Below are positions 3,001 to 62,322 of a DNA stretch of 64,000 nt, in pieces. Under the pieces are notes generated by a model. That model searched no databases. It had not been told where the DNA came from and worked only from the letters and a program-made list of their open reading frames with translations. The stretch's first letter is position 1. Each line of letters opens with the position of its first letter. The stretch comes from Terebella lapidaria (taxonomy: Eukaryota; Annelida; Polychaeta; Terebellida; Terebellidae). Position numbers and translations under genes: made by a program. Location: NCBI GenBank assembly GCA_949152475.1, contig OX424569.1, positions 18,761,170-18,825,169 of the forward strand, given 5' to 3'.

Positions 3001-6000
3001 AAAGGTGAAACGCACACCCGAAGTTGCCCAATTTAACATTGATTTAAATGCAGACAATAATTGGTCATTTCAACCCTTAAGGAATCACAGAAATTTATTT
3101 TTTCATGCATCAGGATACTTGAAAAGGCATGAAATGATGAATTGTGTGACCACTGAAGATATTCAATACAAATTAAAGAATATTTCGGCATGTTTGGCTG
3201 GGCTCCAAGGGAAATGGAAAATTACATGTTAAATGCACTGACGGCAATGATTGAGAAATTGTCTTCCACACTTATTGGAAGAAATATGTAACTATGTGTA
3301 CAAATTTGTGTACGAAATAAAAATTATCATTATACAGGATTTACTCGAGGCCGACTGAGAGCCCAGAAACTGTGGAACCCCCCCCCCCCCCCCGCCACGA
3401 GGTTGCAATTGACCAAAAATGGGTCGGCCTGGCGGCGCATCCGAGACTCATAAATAGCATGCCTCGTCACGTGGATATAGCACTGGACCTTACAGTGTGC
3501 ATCTACATCATAAATATCAGTTGCTTAAAACCTAATAAGCTGGTTTTTGCAAGTTTTTGTAGTTTTTGCTATGCTTTACAAACAATATATTGCGTTTCTT
3601 TTTTAATTAATATGTATTTTTCGTTAGAATTTGTTCAAAATAATGTTACTCAGCTAAGGAATATTTCACCAAATTGTATACAGTGCTAATTGCAATCACA
3701 TCATGTATCAATCCTGAAAATTTGAAACATATCTTAGGAAAACTCAATTGGCTGTTGAACAATAAACGTTTGATATAGTGCTTCATTGGTGATTTTCAGC
3801 ACTAGGGGGTACCGGTATGAATTGTGCTGTTACATGAGAACGCAATGAGATATGAAGTAGATATTTTAGGTCCTGACTGGCCATATGTCACTCTACCTCA
3901 TAGTAGAGTATCAAGTCTCTATTCACAATATCATATATATGAAGGGTATAAGCCAGAAATAGACTTGGGGATGCCTCACACATTGAGGATTCCGTTTTAA
4001 GTGACGTCATTTCGCCAGATGTATGGTTGCCTAGGGAGACAACGCGAAGCGATATTGATCCACGTGCTGGTTTATTTTGCGCGTGTGGAAGTCTGGTTTT
4101 GGTAAAAGCAAAAATTCCGATGGTATTCCCCGGGATTTGGAGTAGAGAAAGGTTTTGCTGAATGTATGCTATGTCGGCAATTGCGATCTGAAAACGAGCT
4201 AAATTGACAGGGGTCCTGTTCAACGTCATTTTATGAAAAATTGGTACTATCATGCTCTATAGTGACCTAGATTTTATTGAAGTACTATGATTATACTATC
4301 ACACCCTGTCAACCGTTAAGCCCTAATTTTTTTTTGGAAAGGTGAAACGCACACCCGAAGTTGCCCAATTTAACATTGATTTAAATGCAGACAATAATTG
4401 GTCATTTCAACCCTTAAGGAATCACAGAAATTTATTTTTTCATGCATCAGGATACTTGAAAAGGCATGAAATGATGAATTGTGTGACCACTGAAGATAGT
4501 CAATACAAATTAAAGAATATTTCGGCATGTTTGGCTGGGCTCCAAGGGAAATGGAAAATTACATGTTAAATGCACTGACGGCAATGATTGAGAAATTGTC
4601 TTCCACACTTATTGGAAGAAATATGTAACTATGTGTACAAATTTGTGTACGAAATAAAAATTATCATTATACAGGATTTACTCGAGGCCGACTGAGAGCC
4701 CAGAAACTGTGGAACCCCCCCCCCCCCCCCGCCACGAGGTTGCAATTGACCAAAAATGGGTCGGCCTGGCGGCGCATCCGAGACTCATAAATAGCATGCC
4801 TCGTCACGTGGATATAGCACTGGACCTTACAGTGTGCATCTACATCATAAATATCAGTTGCTTAAAACCTAATAAGCTGGTTTTTGCAAGTTTTTGTAGT
4901 TTTTGCTATGCTTTACAAACAATATATTGCGTTTCTTTTTTAATTAATATGTATTTTTCGTTAGAATTTGTTCAAAATAATGTTACTCAGCTAAGGAATA
5001 TTTCACCAAATTGTATACAGTGCTAATTGCAATCACATCATGTATCAATCCTGAAAATTTGAAACATATCTTAGGAAAACTCAATTGGCTGTTGAACAAT
5101 AAACGTTTGATATAGTGCTTCATTGGTGATTTTCAGCACTAGGGGGTACCGGTATGAATTGTGCTGTTACATGAGAACGCAATGAGATATGAAGTAGATA
5201 TTTTAGGTCCTGACTGGCCATATGTCACTCTACCTCATAGTAGAGTATCAAGTCTCTATTCACAATATCATATATATGAAGGGTATAAGCCAGAAATAGA
5301 CTTGGGGATGCCTCACACATTGAGGATTCCGTTTTAAGTGACGTCATTTCGCCAGATGTATGGTTGCCTAGGGAGACAACGCGAAGCGATATTGATCCAC
5401 GTGCTGGTTTATTTTGCGCGTGTGGAAGTCTGGTTTTGGTAAAAGCAAAAATTCCGATGGTATTCCCCGGGATTTGGAGTAGAGAAAGGTTTTGCTGAAT
5501 GTATGCTATGTCGGCAATTGCGATCTGAAAACGAGCTAAATTGACAGGGGTCCTGTTCAACGTCATTTTATGAAAAATTGGTACTATCATGCTCTATAGT
5601 GACCTAGATTTTATTGAAGTACTATGATTATACTATCACACCCTGTCAACCGTTAAGCCCTAATTTTTTTTTGGAAAGGTGAAACGCACACCCGAAGTTG
5701 CCCAATTTAACATTGATTTAAATGCAGACAATAATTGGTCATTTCAACCCTTAAGGAATCACAGAAATTTATTTTTTCATGCATCAGGATACTTGAAAAG
5801 GCATGAAATGATGAATTGTGTGACCACTGAAGATAGTCAATACAAATTAAAGAATATTTCGGCATGTTTGGCTGGGCTCCAAGGGAAATGGAAAATTACA
5901 TGTTAAATGCACTGACGGCAATGATTGAGAAATTGTCTTCCACACTTATTGGAAGAAATATGTAACTATGTGTACAAATTTGTGTACGAAATAAAAATTA

Positions 6001-9000
6001 TCATTATACAGGATTTACTCGAGGCCGACTGAGAGCCCAGAAACTGTGGAACCCCCCCCCCCCCCCCGCCACGAGGTTGCAATTGACCAAAAATGGGTCG
6101 GCCTGGCGGCGCATCCGAGACTCATAAATAGCATGCCTCGTCACGTGGATATAGCACTGGACCTTACAGTGTGCATCTACATCATAAATATCAGTTGCTT
6201 AAAACCTAATAAGCTGGTTTTTGCAAGTTTTTGTAGTTTTTGCTATGCTTTACAAACAATATATTGCGTTTCTTTTTTAATTAATATGTATTTTTCGTTA
6301 GAATTTGTTCAAAATAATGTTACTCAGCTAAGGAATATTTCACCAAATTGTATACAGTGCTAATTGCAATCACATCATGTATCAATCCTGAAAATTTGAA
6401 ACATATCTTAGGAAAACTCAATTGGCTGTTGAACAATAAACGTTTGATATAGTGCTTCATTGGTGATTTTCAGCACTAGGGGGTACCGGTATGAATTGTG
6501 CTGTTACATGAGAACGCAATGAGATATGAAGTAGATATTTTAGGTCCTGACTGGCCATATGTCACTCTACCTCATAGTAGAGTATCAAGTCTCTATTCAC
6601 AATATCATATATATGAAGGGTATAAGCCAGAAATAGACTTGGGGATGCCTCACACATTGAGGATTCCGTTTTAAGTGACGTCATTTCGCCAGATGTATGG
6701 TTGCCTAGGGAGACAACGCGAAGCGATATTGATCCACGTGCTGGTTTATTTTGCGCGTGTGGAAGTCTGGTTTTGGTAAAAGCAAAAATTCCGATGGTAT
6801 TCCCCGGGATTTGGAGTAGAGAAAGGTTTTGCTGAATGTATGCTATGTCGGCAATTGCGATCTGAAAACGAGCTAAATTGACAGGGGTCCTGTTCAACGT
6901 CATTTTATGAAAAATTGGTACTATCATGCTCTATAGTGACCTAGATTTTATTGAAGTACTATGATTATACTATCACACCCTGTCAACCGTTAAGCCCTAA
7001 TTTTTTTTTGGAAAGGTGAAACGCACACCCGAAGTTGCCCAATTTAACATTGATTTAAATGCAGACAATAATTGGTCATTTCAACCCTTAAGGAATCACA
7101 GAAATTTATTTTTTCATGCATCAGGATACTTGAAAAGGCATGAAATGATGAATTGTGTGACCACTGAAGATATTCAATACAAATTAAAGAATATTTCGGC
7201 ATGTTTGGCTGGGCTCCAAGGGAAATGGAAAATTACATGTTAAATGCACTGACGGCAATGATTGAGAAATTGTCTTCCACACTTATTGGAAGAAATATGT
7301 AACTATGTGTACAAATTTGTGTACGAAATAAAAATTATCATTATACAGGATTTACTCGAGGCCGACTGAGAGCCCAGAAACTGTGGAACCCCCCCCCCCC
7401 CCCCCGCCACGAGGTTGCAATTGACCAAAAATGGGTCGGCCTGGCGGCGCATCCGAGACTCATAAATAGCATGCCTCGTCACGTGGATATAGCACTGGAC
7501 CTTACAGTGTGCATCTACATCATAAATATCAGTTGCTTAAAACCTAATAAGCTGGTTTTTGCAAGTTTTTGTAGTTTTTGCTATGCTTTACAAACAATAT
7601 ATTGCGTTTCTTTTTTAATTAATATGTATTTTTCGTTAGAATTTGTTCAAAATAATGTTACTCAGCTAAGGAATATTTCACCAAATTGTATACAGTGCTA
7701 ATTGCAATCACATCATGTATCAATCCTGAAAATTTGAAACATATCTTAGGAAAACTCAATTGGCTGTTGAACAATAAACGTTTGATATAGTGCTTCATTG
7801 GTGATTTTCAGCACTAGGGGGTACCGGTATGAATTGTGCTGTTACATGAGAACGCAATGAGATATGAAGTAGATATTTTAGGTCCTGACTGGCCATATGT
7901 CACTCTACCTCATAGTAGAGTATCAAGTCTCTATTCACAATATCATATATATGAAGGGTATAAGCCAGAAATAGACTTGGGGATGCCTCACACATTGAGG
8001 ATTCCGTTTTAAGTGACGTCATTTCGCCAGATGTATGGTTGCCTAGGGAGACAACGCGAAGCGATATTGATCCACGTGCTGGTTTATTTTGCGCGTGTGG
8101 AAGTCTGGTTTTGGTAAAAGCAAAAATTCCGATGGTATTCCCCGGGATTTGGAGTAGAGAAAGGTTTTGCTGAATGTATGCTATGTCGGCAATTGCGATC
8201 TGAAAACGAGCTAAATTGACAGGGGTCCTGTTCAACGTCATTTTATGAAAAATTGGTACTATCATGCTCTATAGTGACCTAGATTTTATTGAAGTACTAT
8301 GATTATACTATCACACCCTGTCAACCGTTAAGCCCTAATTTTTTTTTGGAAAGGTGAAACGCACACCCGAAGTTGCCCAATTTAACATTGATTTAAATGC
8401 AGACAATAATTGGTCATTTCAACCCTTAAGGAATCACAGAAATTTATTTTTTCATGCATCAGGATACTTGAAAAGGCATGAAATGATGAATTGTGTGACC
8501 ACTGAAGATATTCAATACAAATTAAAGAATATTTCGGCATGTTTGGCTGGGCTCCAAGGGAAATGGAAAATTACATGTTAAATGCACTGACGGCAATGAT
8601 TGAGAAATTGTCTTCCACACTTATTGGAAGAAATATGTAACTATGTGTACAAATTTGTGTACGAAATAAAAATTATCATTATACAGGATTTACTCGAGGC
8701 CGACTGAGAGCCCAGAAACTGTGGAACCCCCCCCCCCCCCCCCCCGCCACGAGGTTGCAATTGACCAAAAATGGGTCGGCCTGGCGGCGCATCCGAGACT
8801 CATAAATAGCATGCCTCGTCACGTGGATATAGCACTGGACCTTACAGTGTGCATCTACATCATAAATATCAGTTGCTTAAAACCTAATAAGCTGGTTTTT
8901 GCAAGTTTTTGTAGTTTTTGCTATGCTTTACAAACAATATATTGCGTTTCTTTTTTAATTAATATGTATTTTTCGTTAGAATTTGTTCAAAATAATGTTA

Positions 9001-9767
9001 CTCAGCTAAGGAATATTTCACCAAATTGTATACAGTGCTAATTGCAATCACATCATGTATCAATCCTGAAAATTTGAAACATATCTTAGGAAAACTCAAT
9101 TGGCTGTTGAACAATAAACGTTTGATATAGTGCTTCATTGGTGATTTTCAGCACTAGGGGGTACCGGTATGAATTGTGCTGTTACATGAGAACGCAATGA
9201 GATATGAAGTAGATATTTTAGGTCCTGACTGGCCATATGTCACTCTACCTCATAGTAGAGTATCAAGTCTCTATTCACAATATCATATATATGAAGGGTA
9301 TAAGCCAGAAATAGACTTGGGGATGCCTCACACATTGAGGATTCCGTTTTAAGTGACGTCATTTCGCCAGATGTATGGTTGCCTAGGGAGACAACGCGAA
9401 GCGATATTGATCCACGTGCTGGTTTATTTTGCGCGTGTGGAAGTCTGGTTTTGGTAAAAGCAAAAATTCCGATGGTATTCCCCGGGATTTGGAGTAGAGA
9501 AAGGTTTTGCTGAATGTATGCTATGTCGGCAATTGCGATCTGAAAACGAGCTAAATTGACAGGGGTCCTGTTCAACGTCATTTTATGAAAAATTGGTACT
9601 ATCATGCTCTATAGTGACCTAGATTTTATTGAAGTACTATGATTATACTATCACACCCTGTCAACCGTTAAGCCCTAATTTTTTTTTGGAAAGGTGAAAC
9701 GCACACCCGAAGTTGCCCAATTTAACATTGATTTAAATGCAGACAATAATTGGTCATTTCAACCCTT
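1..9767. repeat. Tandem satellite array, 1337-bp unit, about 7.3 copies
   Basis: Direct reading shows the same unit repeated head to tail from the first base to 9767, where it stops inside the phrase TTTCAACCCTT. Equivalent points fall at 330, 1668, 3005, 4342, 5679, 7016, 8354 and 9694, so spacing is 1338, 1337, 1337, 1337, 1337, 1338 and 1340. The length changes come from one C homopolymer (17,16,16,16,16,17,19 C). Apart from that I noticed only one clear point variant, T or G at 487 and its equivalents (T,G,T,G,G,T,T). The array begins before the window. Each unit contains short open frames (75, 105 and 121 codons), but none resembles a known protein and they are shared simply because the copies are near-identical. 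Near-identity implies recent amplification or concerted evolution. A partial inverted copy lies at 19812-20283. Confidence 0.97.
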
Positions 9768-11620: not shown

Positions 11621-14600
11621 CTATTTCTTCACTTGCTGCTCATCCTCCTTAGCAAAGGCCTTGAGCATCTCCTGCTTCTTGAGGGCGATCCTCTCCTCGC
11701 GACGCTTGCGTGCCTCCCGAACCTTGGTCCTGCGGGCCTCGGCCTGGTCACTGATAACAAACAACCGGCACATTAGCATCAGTCACCCCGTAACAGTTAG
11801 ATGGGAAAAATAACTACTATAGTTCACATGTGGAAAGTGAAATGATCTGAAAAGTGTATGGTATGTCATGACTTTTTACCTGAGCATCTTGGTTCTGCTC
11901 TGGTCGGCTTTCTTCTTGTGAATGTGTTCCATCAACACTCGCTTGTTTCGGTACACGTTACCTTTGCACTTCATGTACAGCGCGTGGTACCTGTACAACA
12001 GATAAATGGAAAATCAGCAATCTGTGACACATCTAGCATAACATTCACAGCATGGTTAATACAACCACAAGACACGGATAACTTATATATCCGACAACTT
12101 GTGTGCAGGATGTCAGCATATAAGTTGAAATGGATGAAGCAAACTGGGAATAAATGTGTAAACAAGTTTTTGAGATGGAGTATTTACATTAGGTGTACAT
12201 GTAGCTTGCATGGTTTATCTCCCCAATCATGGTCACATAGTGACTATGGGAAGGTGATGGAATATGCAAGCTTCTGTTCACAGCAAACCACGAGGTTTGG
12301 GGACAAGAATTATTCTCCAACACTGTGGTAAAGGACTATGCCTCAAGTCCCCTGGAAGAGGGACATTCAGCTCCAACCAGCCACACAGACAACTCCATGT
12401 CACAGTCGAGAAGACCCAACTGATCTTGGAATGTCAATGTTGATACCAACAATTTTTTAGTATTTAATATATTGATAACATGGTAACTCTTTGCGCTCAG
12501 TTAGTTTGGTGTTCATCCAATAACATTCATTCTTGATATTGTGAACCCTGAAATGTTTTACATCCTTTAGAATGTGCGAGTTTTGTGAGCAGAGAAATCT
12601 TGAAATTGAAAGGTCACAAATTTTAGTTTTGCGTTATATAACAGTGCTACAAATGTCCAGAAGCGATTGCAACGCTGTGAATATGCAATCTTTGAAAGAT
12701 GCAATAGTTTCAGAGTTTACAGTATACCAAGCCAAATATATTTGCAATCTTTTTTCTTCCTAGATCTAGTACATTTGTTCATTTTGCTAACTTGGAAAAA
12801 TTTGCAACCAGGCTTTCCAGCAAAACTTCACTAGTGGGTAATCAAAGTTAATTTATGACTTTTGTGTAAACAACAATATAATAAATGTGAACATACAAAT
12901 AAATGTATCTTGCATGGTTTTTCTCCCCAATTATGGTCACATAGTGACTATGGGAAGGTGATGGAATATGCAAGCTTCTGTTCACAGCAAACCACGAGGT
13001 TTAGGGACAAGAATTATTCTCCAACACTGTGGTAAAGGACTATGCCTCAAGTCCCCTGGAAGAGGGACATTCAGCTCCAACCAGCCACACAGACAACTCC
13101 ATGTCACAGTCGAGAAGACTCAACTGATCTTGGAATGTCAATGTTGATACCAACAATTTTTTAGTATTTAATATATTGATAACATGGCAACTCTTTGCGC
13201 TCAGTTAGTTTGGTGTTCATCCAATAACATTCATTCTTGATATTGTGAACCTTGAAATGTTTTACATCCTTTAGAATGTGCGAGTTTTGTGAGCAGAGAA
13301 ATCTTGAAATTGAAAGGTCACAAATTTTAGTTTTGCGTTATATAACAGTGCTACAAATGTCCAGAAGCGATTGCAACGCTGTGAATATGCAATCTTTGAA
13401 AGATGCAATAGTTTCAGACTTTACAGTATACCAAGCCAAATATATTTGCAATCTTTTTTCTTCCTAGATCTAGTACATTTGTTCATTTTGCTAACTTGGA
13501 AAAATTTGCAACCAGGCTTTCCAGCAAAACTTCACTAGTGGGTAATCAAAGTTAATTTATGACTTTTGTGTAAACAACAATATAATAAATGTGAACATAC
13601 AAATAAATGTATCTTGCATGGTTTTTCTCCCCAATTATGGTCACATAGTGACTATGGGAAGGTGATGGAATATGCAAGCTTCTGTCCACAGCAAACCACG
13701 AGGTTTGGGGACAAGAATTATTCTCCAACACTGTGGTAAAGGACTATGCCTCAAGTCCCCTGGAAGAGGGACATTCAGCTCCAACCAGCCACACAGACAA
13801 CTCCATGTCACAGTCGAGAAGTCTCAACCGATCTTGGAATGTCAATGTTGTACTGAGAAACCATTTTCTGGTATTTTTCAAAATACTATTTCAAACTTAC
13901 AAGTTCAAGTTAACTTTATTGTTAATGTGTCCCGAAGACCGTAAAAAGACCGACATTGATGACTGTGAATTTGGCAATTGTCACTCCCGAATATTTGGGC
14001 GAAAATTTAATTGAGAGGTTTCAGAACCAGAAAAATTTATTGGAAGTTCCGAACCACACACTTTTTAAAATTTCAGTTTCTTCCTTATCGTCAAATCTGC
14101 CAAATAAATCACTCGACAAACTCAGTCATTTTACAGTAAAGAGATCTCTGCCACCTACAGGAGTTAGGTTTGATGTCCAATTGAATGTTTTAGCATTGAG
14201 CATTCAGTATGGTATATCTGACCAAAACTGTACTCAAATGTGCTCGAAAGTAACAAATATATAATGACAATAAACAAAAGTAAACATGTTTCATAAACAA
14301 ATGTATCTTGCATGGTTTATCTCCCCAATCATGGTCACATAGTGACTATGGGAAGGTGATGGAATATGCAAGCTTCTGTCCACAGCAAACCACGAGGTTT
14401 AGGGACAAGAATTATTCTCCAACACTGTGGTAAAGGACTATGCCTCAAGTCCCCTGGAAGAGGGACATTCAGCTCCAACCAGCCACACAGACAACTCCAT
14501 GTCACAGTTGAGAAGACTCAACTGATCTTGGAATGTCAATGTTGATACCAACAATTTTTTTTAGTATTTAACATATTGATAACATGGTAACTCTTTGCAC

Positions 14601-17600
14601 TCAGTTAGTTTGGTGTTCATCCAATAACATTCATTCTTGATATTGTGAACCCTGAAATGTTTTACATCCTTTAGAATGTGCGAGTTTTGTGAGCAGAAAA
14701 ATCTTGAAATTGAAAGGTCGCAAATTTTAGTTTTTTCGTTATATAAGTTAATATAACAGTGCTTCAAATGTCCAGAAGCGATTGCAACGTTGTGAATATG
14801 CAATCTTTGACAGAGGCAATAGTTTTAGAGTTTACAGTATACCAAGCCAAATATATTTGCAATCTTTTTTCTTGCTAGATCTAGTACATTTGTTCATTTT
14901 GCTAACTTGGAAAAATTTGCAACCAGGCTTACCAGCAACTTCACTAGTGGGTAATCAAAGTTAATTATTGGCTTTTGTGTAAACAACAACATAATAAATG
15001 TGAACATAGAAATTAAAAAATTTATCTTGCATGGTTTATCTCCCCAATTATGGTCACATAGTGACTATGGGAAGGTGATGGAATATGCAAGCTTCTGTCC
15101 ACAGCGAACCACGAGGTTTGGGGACAAGAATTATTCTCCAACACTGTGGTAAAGGACTATGCCTCAAGTCCCCTGGAAGAGGGACATTCAGCTCCAACCA
15201 GCCACACAGACAACTCCATGTCACAGTCGAGAAGACTCAACTGATCCTGGCGTGCCAATGTTGTACTGTTCTTCTTGAATTATACGTAAGTTCTTTGTGT
15301 ACACTGGTAAACAAGAACTGCATATATATTATATATGTATATACACTTGCAATGCAGTATATAATATAGTCTGAAAACACATGTGTAGCTCAACATCAAG
15401 GCAAATGGTCACTATATAACACTAGAGAATGCTTGTTTGCCTTACAAGTGACGGTCGATTTTCTTGGCTTCACGGTAACGTTTCAGCAGTCGTCGCAGCA
15501 CTCTCATCCTGCGCATCCAGATGACTTTCTGCGGCATGCGAGCATTGCGCGTTCCCTTCCTCTTGCCGCGGCCTGTGTGACGTCCCTTCCTGCGAGCTTC
15601 GGTGTTCTTACGTACACGAGCTCGGGAGTGGACTGCCACGGGCTTACGGATGATCAAGCCATTCTTGATGAACTTACGGATGTTCTGTCCTGGCAAACAC
15701 AACACAAACAAGCTAATACCTTCAATTCTATACATTCATGATGTATAACAAAGATCAAGTATTTCACAGTGGTTTCAGTTGCCCTTGAATAACGATAAAT
15801 TACAGTGAAGAAGTTTGTGAGAACAGACTTACTGGAGTTGGCATTGGCGATCTCATTAGTCTCGTTAGGGTCCAGCCAGATTTTGTTCTTGCCACACTTC
15901 AGAACGGAAGCGGCAAGCCGCTTCTGTAGGCGTAGTGTACTGTAACAAAGACGGTCTGTCATTCAGTTATCTAAGGTCAAATTGAGAGGCAATCAATTAC
16001 ATCAGAACAACATTAATACAAGCAACACTGTCAACAGCACAACAAGGTGCATGTGGTGGTCACAAACAGTACATCGCTACATGTATCAACATCTGAAACT
16101 ACATTATGTAATCCCATATACTGTAAAAGGGGTTAATTTCGCGAGGGTATAAATTTCCTGAATTTGGGTGTTTGACCATTTCGCCGAGTTTCAATTTTGC
16201 CCAACAGGAATATCATATCAATGATTGCTAAATATTCACCAAGTTTTGTTCTTTCGGGTACTGTAAAAAATCGCCAAATTCAAACCATTGAAATAATCCC
16301 CTTTTGCAGGCCTTAAAAGACAAATTTCAAATTTTTTATCAATCATTGATTGATTGTATCTTGCATGGTTTATCTTCCCAATTACGGTCACATAGTGACT
16401 ATGGGAAGGTGATGGAATATGCAAGCTTCTGTCCACAGCAAACCACGAGGTTTAGGGACAAGAATTATTCTCCAACACTGTGGTAAAGGACTATGCCTCA
16501 AGTCCCCTGGAAGAGGGACATTCAGCTCCAACCAGCCACACAGACAACTCCATGTCACAGTCGAGAAGACTCAACTGATCTTGGAATGTCAATGTTGTTT
16601 TTCAACTCGTCAAAGGGACAAAAAGAACACAAATGGATAAAGTACCAGTCTGGGCTCATGTTGGCTCCACCAATCAGTGCCATGTTCTCTGTACCATGTG
16701 ACCACAGTTTTTAACCAATCACAGCCATTATGTCTTAGACCGCCCATGTTATCTTACATGCAACCCGCACAAGGGACTAGATCTACCAGAATAAGTTCAC
16801 TACCAGGTATTTTCGGGATTGGATTTGGAATTCAGCAGGCATCAATGGCAAATACTGACACTTGGCAGCCGAGTAATGAGGAGCTAAACATCACTCAAAC
16901 TGGACACGTGGTAATGTCTATGCAAGTCCACATAAGTGGGCCAAAAGTGGCACATATTAGATGTACCGAAACTAATTGACATTTTTTCCACCCATATCAT
17001 GTTGCCTTTCCATAGTTAGAAGCTTTAAAATTCAATGAGTGTGTAATAAGAGTTCTGGGTCAATTTAGTTACTAAGTATTGAAATTCCCATATTTTTCAG
17101 ATGAAAAAAAAAGCAACGAAACAAGTCACCATAGAACTCTTTCAATTATTATTTTCATCCTGAAATTGTGTTTATCCCAATGTAGCCTATATTATGAATA
17201 TATAGGGAATATTTAGTAAATATGGGAATATTCTGTAGTAAGTGATCGAAAGGTGTGTAAACTGCTGTTTTCATATCACAATATTAGTATAATATACATA
17301 TTATGGGTGTTGTAATTTGAATACAATATACGGCTAAATCATGGCTTCAATTCAAGGAAAAAACCCAAGGGTTATGGCCGCCACCGGGCAATATATAGTT
17401 GCCAGCAATGGCTCACAGAGCCAGGCAGTAAAGCTGAATAAAAAGCGAGGTACTGCCGGACTATACAAAAAATGTTATAAAAATCTATTAAGTCATGAAT
17501 AACATACACAAACTGAGTAAATAAAGATAGTACTCCCATCCTTCCACATGCCGATAGTTTCACTTCCAAAAATATTTTATTTCATCCTCAACTTCTGAAA

Positions 17601-19460
17601 TAGTTGTGCTAAACCAAATTTTGGCTGATTTGGTATCATTTAGAAGATGGAAACTTACTTTCAAATGCCGAGTTGTATATTTGTGTATCAAACATCAGAG
17701 ACCCCTAGCGAATGACAGCCGACAGACGAAAATGGCCAGTGGGAAAAACGAAATTACACCTCGTTTGAGACTGTGGAAGTTTCTTGTATAAAACTCGCTT
17801 CATCGAAGTAGAACTGCTGCTAATAAAGAGATTATAGGTAACTGGAACTAATTATACCCAAAGATTCCGGCATTTAATGGAAATTAATAAACTGCAAAGC
17901 CAACATCATTGTTTATTGTCTGGATGATGGATCTGTGAGCCATTCCTGGCAAAATATATGGCCACCCTATTGATCAGCTGATTATAAGGACAGAACAAGT
18001 CACAACATTTTTTTGCAATCAATAGGCAGCCATACCCTGCACACTCCGAAATGGGAAGTCCCCAAAAGGGACTCCATCCACTGATCCATGAACTGATGAA
18101 ACATTACTGCTGAACAATGTTACATCCAGATTAGTGCCAGAACGAGTAGGCGAGTACTCGTTGACGAGTCCGAAATTGCTATTAGATCTACTCGGTTCCT
18201 ATTTCACTACTTGAGTACTCGTTATAGACAATAAATCGGCCTTGTGTCACGAAATATTGATGCTAAACTACAATGGAAAATCCTAATCCATGGAAAATTA
18301 TATTTGAATCAACTGTAATCCTCAATTCCTCATCTGTGTTCAATACGTTAGGCCTTGATCATGTGAATGGATAGAAGACTGAGAACTGCTGGAAAGTTTC
18401 ACAAGTACTCGGTTCTGGTTCGATTCCCTTGCCACGAGTACTCGGTTCCTATTTTTACTATACTCTGATTTTTCTAACTGGTTTACACAGTTTTTCGCTG
18501 ATATTTTTGCGATGCTAAATGCTATCGTTCTATAACTTGGCATACTTCACCTGAGAGTCAAACGGCAATTATTTACCAAATTTCACTCTTATCACGAAAA
18601 TTGACGAAGTTGGCAATCTACCCCTATGTTAAATTTAGCCCTGTCATTTAATTTCTGGGTCCGCACATAATTTCGTGCATTTGCTCGGTTTTGTAGTAGT
18701 GCAATCTTTCAAAATCAACATGTTTGTGTAGAATACATCCCAATGTGTCATCAGGTTTAAAATTACAACAATACTTCGAATCCTGGTGGATGTAAACAGG
18801 ATCAAATCCTCGAATAAGCTCAGATTTCTCGAGATCCCGTTTTTGGCTAAAATTTAACATTGGGGTAGATTGCCAACTTCTTCAATTATTGCGATAGAAG
18901 TCTGAAATTTGGTAGAAAATTGCCGTTTGTCTCCGAGGTGAAGTATGCCAAGTTATAGAACGATACCATTTACCATCGCAAAGATATCATCAAAAACCAG
19001 TGTAAACAAGTTAGAAAAATCAGAGTATACACTGTACTCGTTCCGCCGCCACTAATCAACATTCACGGCAGTCCCCTCAGTCTCCTTGTCCTGGACCATG
19101 ATGATGAGAGGCTAGGAGTACAAATTCAGACACAAGGAAAAGATATGTGAAGAACCTAAGATTAGCCGTCTCAACTGTTCAATCTATATCACAATTACTC
19201 AAAATATATCACACAAAAAGTGGTCAAGTAAAAAGACTGGTGGATCGTAGAATTCATGGTAAACACGTGTGAGCAAAAACTCTGAAGGAGCGTGGTTGGT
19301 TTGACCAAAAATGTCACATATTTTGCCGTATTGACTCTTAAAATGTATATTGGTATGATTGGCACATCATTCACAAATTATTTGTACTTCTATTTTTGGG
19401 TGTTTATGACGCAGAAATTGTTAGATTCACAAATATATTCTGAACAAAATTGCACCTCAT
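11621..19460 (-). CDS. RPL19: 60S ribosomal protein L19 (eL19), five exons
   Basis: This is a structural protein of the large ribosomal subunit. Minus-strand exons: 19456-19460 (ATG AG), 15833-15939, 15446-15689, 11880-11990 and 11621-11750. They join in frame with GT-AG introns to give 597 bp, 198 aa plus stop (human 196 aa). Recognisable blocks are [71 protein letters not shown] and, near the end, the basic helix [20 protein letters not shown]. Exon 1 codes only Met plus two bases and is inferred from phase (split Ser codon), the donor GTGCAA and a pyrimidine-rich leader. Tiny first exons are usual for ribosomal protein genes. Intron lengths are 3516, 143, 3455 and 129 bp. Introns 1 and 3 hold snoRNA-like copies on the same strand. 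Exons 2-5 are near certain; exon 1 is probable. Confidence 0.93.
12197..12328 (-). ncRNA. H/ACA snoRNA-like copy 1 (RPL19 intron 3)
   Basis: On the minus strand this 132-nt segment starts CCACAG and closes a 5' domain with CTGTGG. H box ACAGAA follows, then a 3' hairpin with outer stem CTTGCAT/ATGCAAG, inner stem CTTCCC/GGGGAG and tip GTCAC-TAT-GTGAC. ACA sits three bases before the 3' end. The base of the inner stem is 15-16 nt from ACA, as the H/ACA pseudouridylation pocket requires. Here the tail reads GCTACATGT, so ACA is kept. The 5' domain folds less convincingly. Host and strand (ribosomal protein gene, sense) match the usual snoRNA arrangement. Confidence 0.55.
12901..13032 (-). ncRNA. 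H/ACA snoRNA-like copy 2 (RPL19 intron 3)
   Basis: 132 nt, the same architecture as the other copies: CCACAG/CTGTGG 5' stem, ACAGAA H box, CTTGCAT/ATGCAAG 3' stem, and tail GATACATTT with ACA exactly three bases from the end. This is the best preserved copy and a good reference for the family. Confidence 0.58.
13605..13736 (-). ncRNA. H/ACA snoRNA-like copy 3 (RPL19 intron 3)
   Basis: 132 nt. H box ACAGAA, both 3' stems and the ACA box (tail GATACATTT) are intact. The DNA on its plus-strand right side (13850-14298) differs from that of copies 1, 2 and 4, so conservation of this segment is not simply that of the whole array unit. Confidence 0.56.
13938..14137. mobile_element. MITE, ACTGTAAAA family, 200 bp
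   Basis: Inverted ends ACCGTAAAAAGACCGAC and (reverse strand) ACTGTAAAATGACTGAG bound 200 bp with the internal phrase GCCAAATAAATCACTC near the right end. It sits in the divergent spacer of the RPL19 intron 3 array. Relatives lie at 16120-16310 and 32046-32239. Confidence 0.65.
14299..14430 (-). ncRNA. H/ACA snoRNA-like copy 4 (RPL19 intron 3)
   Basis: 132 nt with intact H box ACAGAA, CTTGCAT/ATGCAAG stem, inner stem and ACA box (tail GATACATTT). Confidence 0.55.
15018..15149 (-). ncRNA. H/ACA snoRNA-like copy 5, ACA box altered
   Basis: 132 nt. The stems are intact, but the 3' tail reads GATAAATTT, so the ACA box has become AAA, and the 5' stem region has GTTCGCTGTGG instead of GTTTGCTGTGG. 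It lies nearest to exon 3 at the edge of the array. It may be a decaying copy. Confidence 0.4.
16120..16310. mobile_element. MITE, ACTGTAAAA family, 190 bp
   Basis: Left end ACTGTAAAAGGGGTTAATTTC and right end (reversed) CTGCAAAAGGGGATTATTTC match at most positions. It is noncoding and lies in RPL19 intron 1, about 40 bp from snoRNA-like copy 6. Confidence 0.65.
16352..16483 (-). ncRNA. H/ACA snoRNA-like copy 6 (RPL19 intron 1)
   Basis: 132 nt, alone in intron 1 with flanks unlike the array. ACA is kept (GATACAATC). The inner stem reads CTTCCC/GGGAAG, where other copies have GGGGAG. The change turns a G-U pair into A-U, so pairing is preserved, which supports a folded RNA product. Confidence 0.55.
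16640..18128. other. RPL19 intron 1, plain AT-rich sequence
   Basis: I recognise no gene, RNA or clear repeat here. Short open frames do not resemble proteins. Confidence 0.5.
18129..19057. mobile_element. Foldback element of about 930 bp in RPL19 intron 1
   Basis: Outer ends GATTAGTGCCAGAACGAGTA and (reversed) GATTAGTGGCGGCGGAACGA correspond. Inside, 18453-18645 and 18846-19035 form long inverted arms: TATACTCTGATTTTTCTAAC to TAAATTTAGCC pairs with GGCTAAAATTTAACAT to GTTAGAAAAATCAGAGTATA. Arms are about 190 bp, spacer about 200 bp. The left end has extra GAGTACTCG palindromes. It is noncoding; the superfamily is not determined, although 5'-TAGTG ends would not exclude hAT. Confidence 0.7.
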
Positions 19461-19565
19461 CTTGCTGGGCACCACACCATGGAAAAAGAGGGAGTGAACC
19501 GGTCATTTCCGGTATGACGTCAGGAGACAAAATAGTTCCTTAAACCCTGGTCAATATAATTGTCG
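19456..19565 (-). promoter_or_regulatory. Probable RPL19 exon 1, 5'TOP start and promoter
   Basis: Read on the minus strand, a pyrimidine run CTCTTTTTCC (19481-19490) lies just upstream of CCCAGCAAG-ATG-AG followed by donor GTGC. This fits a 5'TOP transcription start typical of ribosomal protein mRNAs. Upstream are CCGGAAAT (19505-19512, ETS/GABP-like) and TGACGTCA (about 19515-19522, CRE/ATF), both common in animal ribosomal protein promoters. No TATA box is seen. One oddity is an ATG just after the pyrimidine run, which would make a short upstream reading frame if the start lies that far out. The placement is inference from signals, not proof. Confidence 0.55.
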
Positions 19566-19811
19566 TCATGGACTATTTTATCAAGTTATATCTACGAAAG
19601 ATATTTCGCGATTTAGTTCTGATTGTTGAAATGCGCGGTTTGTAGCACACTTGTTGCATGGATCACAAACAAACTTGACAAGCATTGCGCAATAATTTGA
19701 GTTATATTGACACCTAGCGAATGAACGAGACGCAAAGTTGCTCAACGCTGCCCTCTGGCGAATAGTAACGAGATAATTTTTTATATATAAATACCGTCAT
19801 AAAATAAGACC

Positions 19812-20283
19812 AAGGGTTGAAATGACCAATTATTGTCTGCATTTAAATCAATGTTAAATTGGGCAACTTCGGGTGTGCGTTTCACCTTTCCAAAAAAAAA
19901 TTAGGGCTTAACGGTTGACAGGGTGTGATAGTATAATCATAGTACTTCAATAAAATCTAGGTCACTATAGAGCATGATAGTACCAATTTTTCATAAAATG
20001 ACGTTGAACAGGACCCCTGTCAATTTAGCTCGTTTTCAGATCCCAATTGCCGACATAGCATACATTCAGCAAAACCTTTCTCTACTCCAAATCCCGGGGA
20101 ATACCAACGGAATTTTTGCTTTTCCCAAAACCAGACTTCCACACGCGCAAAATAAACCAGCACGTGGATCAATATCGCTTCGCGTTGTCTCCCTAGGCAA
20201 CCATACATCTGGCGAAATGACGTCACTTAAAACGGAATCCTCAATGTGTGAGGCATCCCCAAGTCTATTTCTGGCTTATACCC
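19812..20283 (-). repeat. Lone inverted 472-bp piece of the 1337-bp satellite
   Basis: The reverse complement matches satellite positions 1270-1741 base for base in length (472 bp), with a few substitutions (for example GGGATCTG for GCGATCTG). One edge coincides with the point where the main array stops (after TTTCAACCCTT). The copy is flanked by the 8-bp direct repeat CCAAGGGT (19810-19817 and 20284-20291). It lies about 250 bp upstream of the RPL19 promoter. Confidence 0.9.
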
Positions 20284-20454
20284 CCAAGGGTCATGTACAA
20301 ATTTAAAGCTTCTTAGATAATATGTTATTATGCAGAGCATAGAGACGCAGCGAGTGGAAAAGCAGGTTTCTTGTAGATCTCTATACCTGTAAAAATTATT
20401 ATCATTGATATAATATATATTTATATTGCTGTACTGGTAGGTCTAGACCTAGAA

Positions 20455-21058
20455 CAGCCTGAGCGACGCGGAGCGTCTGAGATGGCTGTCATTCACCCTC
20501 GGGACGGAAATCGTTTGGACATCTTTTCAACTAAAAAATCAAAATCTTACACAACTGTACCTTCTAGGCCTCATCTATATACCGAGAGGACATAGGGGAT
20601 ACATATTTGACAAACAATCAATGATTTTATCCCTGAAATATCCCAACTTGAAATCGCGAACCGGATTGTGACAACTTGACACATCTCATGGGCGCATCCA
20701 TTTTTTTCAGCTGTATTGACCTCACAATTCACTAGGTGGTGCCACTTCTCATTATCTGAGATCGAGTTGTGGCGCCACCAAGCGAATTTGATGTCATACT
20801 ATTGGGAAAATGGATAAACCCATGGCCCGGCCAAGAGCTTGTCAAAATCTGGTTCGCGTTTTCAAGTTGGGATATTTCAATAATAAAGTCATTGATTGTT
20901 TGTCAAATATGTATCCCCTATGTCCTATCGGTATATAGATGAGGCCTAGAAGGTACAGTTGTGTAAGATTTTGATTTTTTAGTTGAAAAGATGTCCAAAC
21001 GATTTCCGTCCCGAGGGTGAATGACAGCCATCTCAGACGCTCCGCGTCGCTCAGGCTG
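20455..21058. mobile_element. Foldback element, 604 bp, arms of about 255 bp
   Basis: The left arm, 20455-20710 (CAGCCTGAGCGACGCGGAGC onward), is repeated in reverse at 20808-21058 with high identity, ending GCTCCGCGTCGCTCAGGCTG. The spacer of about 100 bp itself contains a small inverted pair, GTGGTGCCAC and GTGGCGCCAC. No coding capacity. A transcript would fold into a near-perfect long hairpin. Confidence 0.85.
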
Positions 21059-22188
21059 GACCTAGAATAGTGTGAAAAATAGCGAGTAATACTGGCAAGC
21101 AGTTGAAAAACAATCTGTCTGAATCAGGCTCATGGAGTCATGGACAGTCAGTAGGCCTAGATCTATGTGTGTAACAATGAAACTAAAAAAACACTTTGAT
21201 CATCACCAATCGTTGTTATTGTATCTAAATATTCAGAATATTCTAACATATTGACATGAAGTTGTGTTAAATGCTTTGAACACCCCCAAAATGTTGACAA
21301 ATTTAGAACAAATGGCTGGCATGCAGAGAATGCACTCACTGATTCAGCAGCACTGTAACCTAAAGACGAGATGAACAACAACGGTAAGATAGCCGTAACC
21401 TCAAGATGCAACAATTATATTAGTACTATAGGAGATGGAATGGGAGTCAAATTACTCCAGACTTCTGACTTGAGTTTTGATGGGTAGGAAAGGTGACCCA
21501 GTATGGGCGATATTTGTCCCCCTAGATAATCAATATAAAGATTGAGTTTATGAGTAACAATACACAACATCATAAATGCAGAATTTTCATCATGACCATT
21601 GTTATTTATTAACATAACAACTTACTATATATAAGAAACTACCTGGGAATACATATTGTCCAAGACTGCATGAGATTCAATGGATATTATGTGACTAGAA
21701 TTTCGTGAGAGAAATACACTTAAAACAGTACTTATAATGAAGTTTTTAGTTGATTAAAAAAAAACATTTTTCATAATCGTTTTTAATCGTTTCAATTGCC
21801 CACTGACATGAAATTCAATACGCCATGTGTAACCCATGAGCAATTTCTGTGAACTTTGATAATCAGCGATAAGATGTATCAGTAGCACAAAGTGTTAAAA
21901 GGCAGATAAAGACAACCACATACTAGTTGTGTTGTGAATAAACTTTCCAACAAAAAACTTTCTTTCACAACCAATTGTCATATTTATATCCATACACTAA
22001 CTACTAGTATAGAGGAATAGCTGATGTCAAAATTGCCCGGGAGATTCATCTGATGACCTGCCAATTCAAGACAACAGATCAAGACAATATACTTATTATT
22101 GGAGCCAACAATATGCCTATGCAGTGTCAAGCACCACTCCAAAGAATTTCTATAGAAAATCTTTGACCACACACACAAACAGGAATAT
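21059..22188. other. AT-rich stretch without recognised gene
   Basis: I see no protein domain, RNA gene or long repeat. Open frames are short and their composition is non-coding in appearance. Confidence 0.5.
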
Positions 22189-22763
22189 GGAAGCCCATAG
22201 GTAACAGGTGCGGGAAAAAAATTTGATGTTTTTCCTATTAAAAACCTTGCACGTTCGAACGTAGAAAGTTCAAAACTACCACGTTCGCACGTGGAAGTAT
22301 TTAGCGTTATCACGTTCGCACGTGAAAGCATTTGATGCTACCACACCCAAATATTTGCACATGCGAACGTGGTAGCTCCTGAAGTTTCCACGTGCGAACG
22401 TGAAAGCGTTAAATACTTCCACGTGTGAACGTGGTAACTTCCACGTGTGAACGCAATAGCCTTAACTGTTCCCACGTGCGAACGTGATAGTAGGGACGCC
22501 TAGCAATCCGTACGTATATGGGAACGGATACGTAAACGTTGTCGACACTGCCAGTATCATATATGCAAATGCGTCATTTACGCAGAAATACCCCCTGGAT
22601 ATCTAGCAAATGGTGATGTCACCATGTCGTTGACGTATACGTTCCCGTACACGTACGGATTGCTAGGGGTCCCTAGTGTTAAATGCTTCCACGTTCGAAC
22701 GTGCTAGCTTTTTGCTGGAAAAGACATAGAAAATTTTCATGCGCATGTCACCTATGGGCTTCC
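22189..22763. mobile_element. Foldback element made of CACGTTCG palindromes
   Basis: Terminal inverted repeats GGAAGCCCATAGGT (22189-22202) and ACCTATGGGCTTCC (22750-22763) bound 575 bp. Inside, about ten imperfect palindromes of the type CACGTTCGAACGTG or CACGTTCGCACGTGGAAG recur, each holding ACGT cores and often the CACGTG E-box. A second inverted-repeat unit (22491-22675) is nested within. Confidence 0.8.
22491..22675. mobile_element. Nested inverted-repeat element, 185 bp
   Basis: The left arm, starting TAGGGACGCCTAGCAATCCG, is mirrored by the right arm ending CGGATTGCTAGGGGTCCCTA. Arms are about 48 bp and the centre is unrelated to the surrounding CACGTTCG repeats. It looks like an insertion into the outer foldback element. 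Confidence 0.7.
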
Positions 22764-23837
22764 GTACAGGGAAATCAAGAACGAATGAAATTATAAGCAA
22801 TGGCAGTGATGCGGATTACATCAAACAGGGATTTTACTGCACAATATTGTGGAAACAACGCCTACTGGATGACTATTCAATTTGAAGGTGTGAAAGTGTC
22901 GGTCACACTGAACATACCTCTGCTCAACATTGAATCTGTAAAATCGTGGTTATAGCATATTATTCTTCATAATATCATGTATACAATGGACAAATTTTAT
23001 CGTCATGATTATTTGTGACTATTACATATTGCATGTATCAAACATTTTGAATTCATTTTTCTTTTTTTTTGTTCAAGAATAGCAGTCCGAAATGGCTTTG
23101 TTTTGTTCATCACTCGTCAATATATCGGAGTAGTTGATTGTAAGAGATACACGTAAGAGTAAGAGAAACACAATTATGTCAGTTTAATTTTGACAGCACA
23201 TATATCTTTTTGTTGTTATCGGTCTGGTTTCCTATTGTGACAATAAAATTGAGTGAAACACTGACTGAAGTCTGTTTTATTTGATCAGCAAAGAACACGG
23301 TAAGCCTATTTGACATGGGGAGGTTTTATTTTTTCTTCCAAAGGTACTCGGCATGAATGGAATTACCTACAAAGTAATGGGTGTTTAATTTTCTTCCTTA
23401 TACTAGAATAACTGTGTGTATCGCCAAGTGTATGTCAGGCTCCAGTCTTTTGTGGATATCAAAAAGTTTCTGCTAACATGTGTAAAATACCTATAGCCGT
23501 GGTAACGGAAAATAGATATGTTCTAGTATGAATGTTCAAGAATTGAATTCATTAATCAGCAAGATATGTCATTATACCAGTTCAATATTTGGAAGAAAAT
23601 AATGTTGGGCAATATTTATTGAGTATTTTTTTCTGTGCTTGCAAGCAGTAATTTCAGCGAAAATTGCATAATTCACCATCCAGCATGAGGCAGTCAAAAA
23701 CCCTTTGCGTTTTGGAACAGAAGGGGCCAAAGTTCTAGAATATACGCACGAATACGGCATAACTCACTATTGTTGTCATATACTCGTATACAGTAGTAGG
23801 CATACACCAGTATACATGTACATGTACACGGTGGCCA
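22764..23837. other. AT-rich stretch without recognised gene
   Basis: No domain was recognised. A plus-strand AATAAA near 23245 followed by T- and GT-rich sequence could be a 3' end, but no coding exon is visible upstream, so I do not call a gene. Confidence 0.45.
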
Positions 23838-24345
23838 CGGTGGCTAGGCATTACGCGTTATTCAGGGAGTGTCGCGTAAAATCGTGAGTATTACGCGTTA
23901 TTGGTGAGGAAATGGCACAGGAAACGACATAGGTCCCCACTTCAAATGAGGAAAATCAATGAAAAAGTTCAGTTTCTTCCTAAAATTTTGTTTCCACGGA
24001 ACATCCCAATGAGTAAACATTGCGTAGGCTACTATGAACTACTTGTATACATCGTTATATTTACGAAAATGGACACACAGTTCGTGACAACACCCGCACG
24101 CTTGCGACTAGTTTGTGAAATATCATCGGCTATCAATTGAAACCAACAAAGCGCATGTTTGTAAATCATAGAATGCTCGGTGAAATCTTTCTTTATTGTT
24201 ACACAACGCAACCAGTTGTTTTAATAGAGTATTCTATTAACTGAGAAGCTTTTTATGGTTTACGCGTATCAGCCTGAGGGGTAGGTAGTTCATGGTAAGC
24301 TGACGCGAAATTAGCTCCCACGAAATCTTATCCAGTGCAATTTTA

Positions 24346-26345
24346 TGCGACGGCCATGCGGCGGTCCGTCAGAGCCACCCTGTAGCGTCGCTTCACACTG
24401 TTTCTGTTTATGTGACGGGCAAGTGACGGTCCGTCGGATAGCCGTTGTAGCGCCACATAAGAACATTTCTCTTTCTCCAAGTGACGGCCAAGTGACGGTC
24501 CGTCACATGGACGTTATAGCGCCACATAAGAATTTTTCCCTTTCTCCAAGTGACGGGCAAGTGACGGTCCGTCGGATAGCCGTTGTAGCGCCACATAAGA
24601 ATTTTTTTCTTTCTCCAAGTGACGGCCAAGTGACGGTCCGTCACATGGACCTTATAGCGCCACATAAGAATTTCTCCCATTCTCCAAGTGACGACCAAGC
24701 GACGGTCCGTCACATGGACGTTATAGCGCCACATAAGAATTTTTCCCTTCCTCCAAGTGACGGGCAAGTGACGGTCCGTCAGATAGCCGTTGTAGCGCCA
24801 CATGAGAATTTTTCTCTTTCTCCAAGTGACGGGCAAGCGACGGTCCGTCAGATAGACGTTATAGCGCCACATAAGAATTTTTCCCTTTCTCCAAGTGACG
24901 ACCAAGCGACGGTCCGTCAGATAGCCCTTGTAGCGCCACATAACAACATTTCTCTGTCTCCAAGTGACGGGCAAGTGACCGTCAGATAGGCCTTGGAGCG
25001 CCACATAGCCATATTTCCCTTTCCCCAAGCGACGAGCAAGCGACGGTCCGTCAGATAGCCCTTGTGGCGCCACATAAGAATATTTCTCTGTCTTCAAGTG
25101 ACGGGCAAGTGACCGTCAGATAGGCCTTGGAGCGCCACATAGGGAAATTACCCTTTCTCCAAGTGACGGGCAAGCGACGGTCCGTCACATAGACGTTATA
25201 GCGCCACATAAGAATTTTTCCCTTTCTCCAAGTGACGACCAAGCGACGGTCCGTCGGATAGCCCTTGTAGCGCCACATAACAACATTTCTCTGTCTCCAA
25301 GTGACGGGCAAGTGACGGTCCGTCACATAGACGTTATAGTGCCACATAAGAATTTTTCCATTTCTCCAAGTGACGACCAAGCGACGGTCCGTCGGATAGC
25401 CCTTGTAGCGCCACATAAACAATTTATCTTTCTCCAAGTGACGGCCAAGTGACGGTCCGTCACATGGACATTATAGCGCCACATAGCAATATTTCCCTGC
25501 CCCAAGTGACGGGCAAGCGACGGTCTGTCACATAGACGTTATAGCGCCGCATAGCAATAATTCCCTTCCCCAAGTGACGGGCAAGTGACGGTCAGATAGC
25601 CCTTGTAGCGCCACATAAACAATTTCTCTTTCTCCAAGTGACGGGCAAGTGACCGTCAGATAGGCCTTGTAGCGCCACATAGCAAGATTACCCTCTCTCC
25701 AAGTGACGGGGAAGTGACGGTCCGTCACATAGCCCTTGAAGCGCCACATAAGAATATTTTCTCTGCCCAAGCGACGAACAAGTGACGGTCCGTCAGATGA
25801 CCCTTGTAGCGCCACATAAGAACATTTCTCTTTCTCCAAGTGACGGGCAAGTGACCGTCAGATAGGCCTTGGAGCGCCACATAGCCATATTTCCCTTTCC
25901 CCAAGCGACGAGCAAGCGACGGTCCGTCAGATAGCCCTTGTAGCGCCACATAAGAATATTCCTCTGTCTCCAAGTGATGGGCAAGTGACCATCAGATAGG
26001 CCTTGGAGCACCACATAGCAAGATTACCCTTTCTCCAAGTGACGAGCAAGCGACGGTCCGTCAGATAGACCTTATAGCGCCACATAGCCAAATTTCCATT
26101 TCCCCAAGCGACGAGCAAGTGACGGTCCGTCACATAGCCCTTGTAGCGCCACATAAGAACATTTGTCTTCCTCCAAGTGACGTGCAAGTCACCTTCAGAT
26201 AGGCCTTGGAGCACCACATACCAAGATTAGCCTATCTCTAAGCAACGGGCAAGTGACGGTCCGTCAGATAGACGTTATAGCGCCACAAAAGATTTCTCCC
26301 CTTTCTCCAAGTGACGGGCAAGTGACGGCCCGTCAGATAGAGCTG
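24346..26345. repeat. 69-bp minisatellite, left arm, about 29 units
   Basis: The unit contains CAAGTGACGGTCCGTC, then AGCGCCACATAAGAA and a TTTCTCC tract. The half-palindrome GACGGTCCGTC recurs in nearly every unit. Units vary by a few bases and some lack one GGTCCGTC block. Because 69 is divisible by three, frames on both strands stay open for over 200 codons, but their content is only the translated repeat. Confidence 0.95.
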
Positions 26346-27460
26346 ATACCCCCACATGAAAAACACTATTAACTTTGAAAACTGGACAATTTCTGATGCA
26401 TTGGGACATATGTCCGGAAATCAAATGAATATTTTGAGAAATAAATCTCTGCGTACATTGGGTGAGAAGCAAGTATTGTTTTCCTTGTGGACCTTTGATA
26501 TCAGTAACATCAAACAATGACAAGCATTTCAAAGCAATATCCGACCAAATGATAATGATCCCAACATTGGCACTGATTGTGCTTTAGATATAAACATCAT
26601 AGAAGATGCTTATATTGTCAGTTATATGCAATTAGTGGATACTGCTGTCACAGATGACTTGGCTGATAAGCCTGAGACAAAAGACAATGGGGTTTATACA
26701 AACAGTGACATCAGACATGGGCCCGGGTGTTAATCAGCAATGTTCTTTCATTGTGGTGAAAAAGTAGCACCCCAATATTTCTACACATATTAAGGGGCAT
26801 TTGACTGCCATATTTTAACTTGTTGGAATAAAACTTTGACTAGTCAAAGACATGTTCATTTATTCCTCAATATTATTCATTTTGGGCAATGGTTAATGAT
26901 ATCATGCTATTCTTTCCTGGCAATCACATCACTGAATGTTGTTACTTTTCTGCAAAATCTATCAGTTCTAGGTAATTAACTACTGTCGTTGCTGTATGGG
27001 CTGAAATGTATGCAATATTTATTTGTATATGTAAATCAAATGACACATTGGAGTAGTGAAAGTAATGACTCCATCACAAATATTCTTAGTTAGAGCAGAA
27101 AAATGCTTTCACGCATATCCATTGCCATTTGTTTTCAACTTACCCCCGGTACTGACACAAGTGTTAATGCAATGAACTAGTAAAACCAATGTGGTCTTAA
27201 TCATCAATAATTTTCCAGTTACCATGGTAACCGTGGTAACAGCAGACCTATATTTCTAGACATATCCAGTGTCATTCGTTTTCAAACAACTGGCACATAT
27301 TCTAACTTGTTGGAATAAAGACGTTTACCAGTAAAGGTAATGTTCAGCTATATCATTCCATTGTAACCAATGGTAACTGGTATCATGTCATACTTTCCTT
27401 TCAGTGGCATCACTGATTGTTGTTATTCTTTTGACAAATTTAGCAGTAGCAATTAATGAA
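26346..27460. other. Inner arm block and start of the foldback centre
   Basis: 26355-26735 is the unique inner part of the left arm (mirrored at 32545-32925). From about 26800 a diverged duplication of about 490 bp follows: AACTTGTTGGAATAAA occurs near 26817 and again near 27304, each followed by similar text including a CATCACTGA..TTGTTGTTA phrase. Confidence 0.7.
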
Positions 27461-40390: not shown

Positions 40391-52587
<12,197 letters not shown>

Positions 52588-62300: not shown

Positions 62301-62322
62301 TCGGAGCGTCGTCACCCCTTGA
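59059..62322 (+). mobile_element. DIRS tyrosine recombinase frame
   Basis: A long frame whose last third (about 61270-62320) is a tyrosine recombinase/integrase of the DIRS type. The earlier part overlaps the reverse transcriptase in another frame and has no recognised domain of its own. Confidence 0.85.
59312..61435 (+). mobile_element. DIRS reverse transcriptase/RNase H frame
   Basis: A frame of about 707 codons. The first half resembles the Ty3/DIRS group of reverse transcriptases, followed by an RNase H domain and then the methyltransferase-like region commonly found in DIRS elements. It overlaps the tyrosine-recombinase frame, as is usual in this family. Confidence 0.88.

Follow-up and report, generated by a model that had tools for sequence, protein, structure and literature searches.

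U17, known in yeast as snR30, is an H/ACA RNA that directs no pseudouridylation and is needed for 18S ribosomal RNA (rRNA) processing, according to a review (PMC7601244). The review also places U17 of Xenopus laevis (U17XS8) in each of the six introns of the ribosomal protein gene RPS8 (PMC7601244). Here we describe six copies of this small nucleolar RNA (snoRNA) in the ribosomal protein gene RPL19 of the polychaete Terebella lapidaria. They lie in a 64,000-nt stretch, called the window below and numbered from its first base (assembly GCA_949152475.1, contig OX424569.1, positions 18,761,170 to 18,825,169).

Like Xenopus RPS8, RPL19 of T. lapidaria has U17 repeated inside one ribosomal-protein gene. 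In Xenopus the copies are spread over six introns of RPS8, whereas here five lie in one intron and one in another, and the host is RPL19. The first-pass annotation of this stretch had called five tandem copies in one intron unusual; the layout holds, but the claim of rarity has to be softened because of the Xenopus precedent. Human U17a and U17b (SNORA73, in U17HG) share with the present RNAs the Rfam family, the hairpin plan, the m2 motif and the m1 core, but they have a non-coding host, number two copies, measure 207 nt instead of 247 nt, and end m1 in UA instead of AU. Yeast snR30 has m2 and the m1 core in common, and its pairing site in expansion segment 6 (ES6) of the 18S rRNA agrees with the published structure within a base; it is 606 nt long and has its own gene, whereas the RNA here is 247 nt and intronic. 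Going by paper titles, Fugu U17 is reportedly found in RPS7, a ribosomal-protein gene other than RPL19, and Drosophila is said to have intronic clusters of H/ACA snoRNAs. Among the titles and abstract openings listed from open-licence literature, none placed U17 in RPL19, and the one paper that names both has them in unrelated contexts. What is new is the RPL19 host and the five copies in one intron, whose release is putative; U17 repeats in a ribosomal-protein gene were already known.

Identity of the six elements and their host gene

All six copies are almost certainly full-length U17/snR30 (SNORA73) genes, whose expression and role in rRNA processing would follow from the family. In an Rfam covariance search, as the first-pass annotation had proposed, every copy matched SNORA73 (RF00045) on the minus strand over model positions 1-219, the full length of the model, scoring 96.6-107.6 bits where the gathering score is 74, with E-values between 3.1e-25 and 3.7e-22. 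Covariance model, motifs and layout establish the identity, with the 18S complementarity described below as supporting evidence. U17/snR30 is an H/ACA-class RNA, and it is a known RNA, not a new one. The first-pass annotation had the class and the amplification in RPL19 introns right, and also the six starts, which both the Rfam matches and the alignment reproduce (Table 1). The ordinary pseudouridylation guide of about 130 nt that it implied gave way to U17/snR30, and its 132-nt unit to a gene of 247 nt in each of the six copies; the 132-nt segments are the 3' part, ending shortly before the H box.

The six direct copies were also located by repeat comparison, with starts agreeing within one base. 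When the window was searched by blastn with copy 4 (E<=1), all six matches were these copies, sense in RPL19 introns. No other Rfam family reached its own threshold in the 64-kb window, and between 11400 and 18500 a search at E<=1 returned the six U17 genes, one match far under its gathering score and nothing else. Of 200 shuffled versions of copy 4, 0 folded equally well (z -2.38).

The host is, by its predicted product and exon borders, an intact RPL19 (eL19) gene on the minus strand. Exons 2-5 have GT...AG borders, and their joined translation (196 residues, first exon excluded) matches eL19 chains over nearly the full length, with a best E of 1.5e-95. Gene structure and protein would be consistent with an animal. 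ATGAGGT, found just once in the scanned region 15,900-30,000, is the candidate end of exon 1. As had been annotated, all six U17 copies are sense to RPL19, and the exon borders place five in intron 3, with the sixth upstream of exon 2. In the direction of the host, the intron 3 copies follow in the order 5, 4, 3, 2, 1, and 206 bases separate the end of copy 1 from the 3' splice site. From the end of copy 6 to exon 2 there are 412 bases; the intron of this copy is tentative, since exon 1 is only tentative. A scan of intron 3 for hidden exons gave one extra donor-like site and zero acceptor-like sites, but the simple pattern used missed the real acceptor too and says little. No C/D snoRNA pair of the form RTGATGA...CTGA was present in the four spacers of intron 3.

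Table 1. Positions in the window of the U17/snR30 copies, the motifs of copy 4, the spacers and the parts of RPL19.
Feature	Position	Strand	Remarks
U17/snR30 copy 1, nearest 3' splice site of intron 3	12197..12443	-	RF00045 101.3 bits; m1, m2, H box, ACA present
U17/snR30 copy 2	12901..13147	-	RF00045 103.4 bits; boxes present
U17/snR30 copy 3	13605..13851	-	RF00045 102.9 bits; 76/76 model pairs kept
U17/snR30 copy 4	14299..14545	-	RF00045 107.6 bits; source of structure model
U17/snR30 copy 5, likely pseudogene	15018..15264	-	RF00045 96.6 bits; ACA box = AAA, two stem pairs lost
U17/snR30 copy 6, intron upstream of exon 2	16352..16598	-	RF00045 101.4 bits; 76/76 model pairs kept
H box AGAATA of copy 4	14413..14418	-	Columns 128-133; Rfam consensus AGAgcA
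m1 motif ATATTCCAT of copy 4	14359..14367	-	Columns 179-187; m1 table in PMC7601244
m2 motif AAACCAT of copy 4	14312..14318	-	Columns 228-234; m2 table in PMC7601244
ACA box of copy 4	14302..14304	-	Columns 242-244
Spacer type A between copies 2 and 1	12444..12900	-	Recurs at 13148-13604 with 99.3% identity and at 14546-15017 with about 93%
Spacer type B between copies 4 and 3	13852..14298	-	No blastn match to type A
RPL19 exon 1 end, tentative candidate (ATGAG|GTGCAA after pyrimidine-rich start)	19456..19460	-	Weak donor; upstream ATG precedes
RPL19 exon 2	15833..15939	-	GT...AG borders
RPL19 exon 3	15446..15689	-	Start set by eye at the base following AG (15690-15691); script gave 15686
RPL19 intron 3, 3,455 bp, copies 1-5	11991..15445	-	GTAAGG...TACAG borders
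RPL19 exon 4	11880..11990	-	GT...AG borders
RPL19 exon 5, coding part to TAG stop	11621..11750	-	Ends set by eye

RNA architecture and predicted pairing with 18S rRNA

Folded domain by domain, copy 4 has an outer 5' stem, two 5' hairpins, the H box, an internal hairpin, the 3' hairpin and the ACA box; the stems of its 3' hairpin were placed by hand, guided by the Rfam alignment. The review describes human U17 alike, with two 5' hairpins followed by the H box, an internal hairpin and a 3' hairpin (PMC7601244). The H box reads AGAATA in six of six copies (columns 128-133 of their alignment), is aligned to the Rfam consensus AGAgcA and fits ANANNA. The sequence ACAGAA, previously taken for the H box, lies at columns 167-172, on the 3' side of the internal hairpin. 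The ACA box (columns 242-244) stands three bases before the 3' end in five of the six copies, copy 5 having AAA, and in the copy 4 structure 16 nt (columns 226-241) run from the upper stem to ACA; on both points the first-pass annotation, which gave 15-16 nt, was correct.

The m1 core AUAUUCC and m2 AAACCAU are present in every copy, flanking the base of the 3' pocket. The whole m1 motif reads AUAUUCCAU in all six, so that its last two bases are AU, whereas position 8 is U in 14/14 rows of the table in the review (PMC7601244). The sequences ATTCCATCAC and ATAAACC, earlier read as the flanks of a guide pocket, are indeed there, but they contain most of the U17 m1 and m2 motifs. Copies 1-4 and 6 have complete boxes and 75-76 of 76 pairs intact. 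Copy 5 has lost its ACA and two of the 76 pairs, differs from the other copies at 9-12 of 247 positions, and is probably dead, a pseudogene.

The 18S sequences used for comparison were collected with an 18S pattern; of the 15 loci that it gave in prokaryote records, Rfam confirmed nine as eukaryotic 18S. These nine pieces (L010, L012, L013, L016, L017, L019, L020, L021 and L023) stand inside bacteria-labelled records, presumably as contamination, and none is known to come from this species. In 9/9 pieces UAUUCCAU of m1 has an 8/8 complement (AUGGAAUA) in ES6, and AAACCA of m2 has a 6/6 complement downstream of it, the m1 site lying upstream of UGGUUU (rm2). With AUAUUCCAU eight contiguous pairs can form with ES6, versus six there for the usual AUAUUCCUA, which ends in UA; that usual ending gives a run of seven elsewhere in the 18S of L019 and L023. 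Four of the nine pieces have a second 8/8 m1 site, located 8 bases further in ES6 in L012, L016 and L019 and elsewhere in L010, and six of nine have additional 6-base m2 sites. In the 18S of L021 (1,800 nt) the m1 site is at 799-806 and the m2 site at 836-841. Both fall within the stretch 797-844 to which yeast snR30 is reported to be hybridised, with a helix at 806-836 in between (PMC12095548). The expected partners of m1 and m2 are rm1 and rm2 of 18S ES6.

Yeast snR30 keeps ES6 sequences apart during platform folding (PMC12095548). As a member of this family, and with the U17 motifs in its pocket, the T. lapidaria RNA would be expected to act as a chaperone of 18S rRNA and not to modify it. 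In the mechanism we propose, the RPL19 pre-mRNA would be spliced and the introns trimmed, and a 247-nt RNA would be released. The H/ACA proteins (dyskerin/Cbf5, NHP2, NOP10 and GAR1 in the family) would bind it at the 5' domain and the 3' hairpin, by analogy with other members. U17 would then hold ES6 rRNA open during folding of the 40S platform and would let the A0/A1/A2 cuts proceed.

Growth of the array and competing readings

Because spacer A is common to the gaps between copies 5 and 4, 3 and 2, and 2 and 1, the array must have grown by DNA duplication. Duplication of snoRNAs in cis to neighbouring introns is described in the literature (PMC3412847). Between the youngest spacers (2-1 versus 3-2) there are 3 differences in 457 positions, while copies 1 and 2 differ at 6/247 and copies 2 and 3 at 5/247; since the snoRNA differs no less than the adjoining spacers, selection is not visible on the youngest copies. 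The older spacer (5-4) is set apart from the other type A spacers by 20-23 differences over 455 aligned sites, besides gaps; blastn counts 17-20 mismatches and 4 gap openings. Copy 4 has 6/247 and 4/247 differences from copies 1 and 2, respectively, and for copy 5 the figures are 10/247 against copy 2 and 9/247 against copy 3. Similarity outlasts unlike flanks on both sides of copy 6, on the 5' side of copies 3 and 5 and on the 3' side of copies 1 and 4, which bears out what had been said of copies 3 and 6, for copy 3 on its 5' side. Between copies with unlike flanks, homology stops, by eye, no more than a few bases from where the RNA is predicted to end on either side.

Among the six copies, 21 of 247 columns are variable. 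Columns 38-144 (107 nt) are invariant, and a run this long occurred in 11 of 200,000 random placements. This block (window 14402-14508 in copy 4) is mostly 5' domain and may be a conversion tract or a sign of constraint. The 5' domain of U17 is described as the variable part between species in the review (PMC7601244). In five two-state columns (each state in at least two copies), one of which, column 1, forms the outermost position of the RNA, 7/10 column pairs show all four combinations; this suggests conversion or unequal exchange, or repeated mutation. The site patterns suggest that the copies, duplicated inside the gene, were reshuffled among themselves. We rejected an independent promoter in a shared spacer as an account of the copies in general: copies 3, 5 and 6 have 5' flanks unlike one another and unlike spacer A.

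On one possible reading, which we think rather less likely than not, RPL19 intron 3 is a polycistronic U17 precursor in which four live copies would be set free by internal cleavage, the U17 dose would be tied to a large-subunit protein, conversion would homogenise the copies, and a changed m1 would form a duplex of up to 8 bp with ES6 in this lineage. There is, to our mind, close to an even chance that just one or two copies are live, the introns carrying the others along as recent duplicates or pseudogenes. Copy 5, without ACA and two stem pairs, agrees with the latter, as does the comparison of copies 1 and 2 with their spacers given above, in which the snoRNA is not better conserved; trimming from the intron ends would, moreover, leave the inner copies joined unless the intron is cut between them. 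On the other hand, no box and at most one pair is missing from copies 1-4 and 6, and where the spacer is older, copy 4 has stayed closer to copies 1 and 2 than that spacer has to its counterparts.

A dispersed repeat resembling a short interspersed element (SINE), or a retroposed snoRNA without local function, is very improbable. It would explain why homology ends near the RNA ends in unlike flanks, as after insertion of an RNA copy, but the six blastn matches of the window are all sense and all in RPL19 introns, three of the four intron 3 spacers are shared DNA and not insertion sites, and by eye no A-tail directly follows copy 6. We give slightly less credence still to an ordinary H/ACA guide whose 3' pocket would pseudouridylate some RNA: the 16 nt from pocket to ACA fit the guide rule, a feature shared by snR30/U17 3' hairpins, but the pocket motifs are those of U17 and lie on the basal side.

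Several observations weigh against the U17 reading. The unconstrained lowest-energy fold of the whole of copy 4 lacks the basal stem of the 3' hairpin, an arm of which pairs with the 5' domain; the centroid fold does form this stem. In variable stem columns, pairing is kept in all copies at 7/10 (P 0.0005 against a random-substitution null), which is not better than a transition-only null (P 0.15), and compensatory double changes among the six copies number 0/76 pairs. Since there are no such double changes, proof of the structure cannot come from the six copies by themselves, and identity rests on the Rfam match. The pattern by which the 18S pieces were fetched contains both sites, so the 9/9 match is partly circular and not an independent count. 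Finally, the yeast helix 806-836 overlaps the 8-bp and the 6-bp sites by one base each, so that the real duplexes may be one pair shorter.

Surroundings of the locus and significance

Viral contigs were also searched. The U17 motif pattern occurred in nine viral contigs, 0/9 with an Rfam match at the gathering score, and a 42-base 18S stretch matched 0 viral contigs. Elsewhere in the window, about 600-9600 is a head-to-tail array with a period of 1,337 bp, whose identity at that offset rounds to 1.00 (500-base steps, starts 1,000-5,500). The same open frames recur in it to about 9,600, and two frames tested gave no Pfam match. Two arrays of a 69-bp unit, at 24412-26340 and 33013-34494, are by eye apparent reverse complements of each other, the former being open over long frames, and at 27943-31544 a basic unit of 105 bp is repeated in a long array that also has periods of higher order. 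An open frame at 45159-45527 (+) has a phosphofructokinase domain (PF00365, E 7.4e-15) and is probably an exon. At 56862-62322 there are overlapping long frames, one of them with reverse transcriptase and RNase H domains by Pfam. Another frame there, without a Pfam match, has a C-terminus that by eye, from its motif, is presumably tyrosine recombinase-like. The region is likely a DIRS-like retroelement, judging from these frames.

For annotation, six 132-nt candidates are corrected to 247-nt U17 genes, one probably dead. The locus extends the known pattern of U17 repeated in a ribosomal-protein gene by a further host gene and an extreme layout. The m1 change is a natural variant of the U17-18S duplex, and with five copies in one intron nature has set up a test of whether several H/ACA RNAs can be freed from a single animal intron.

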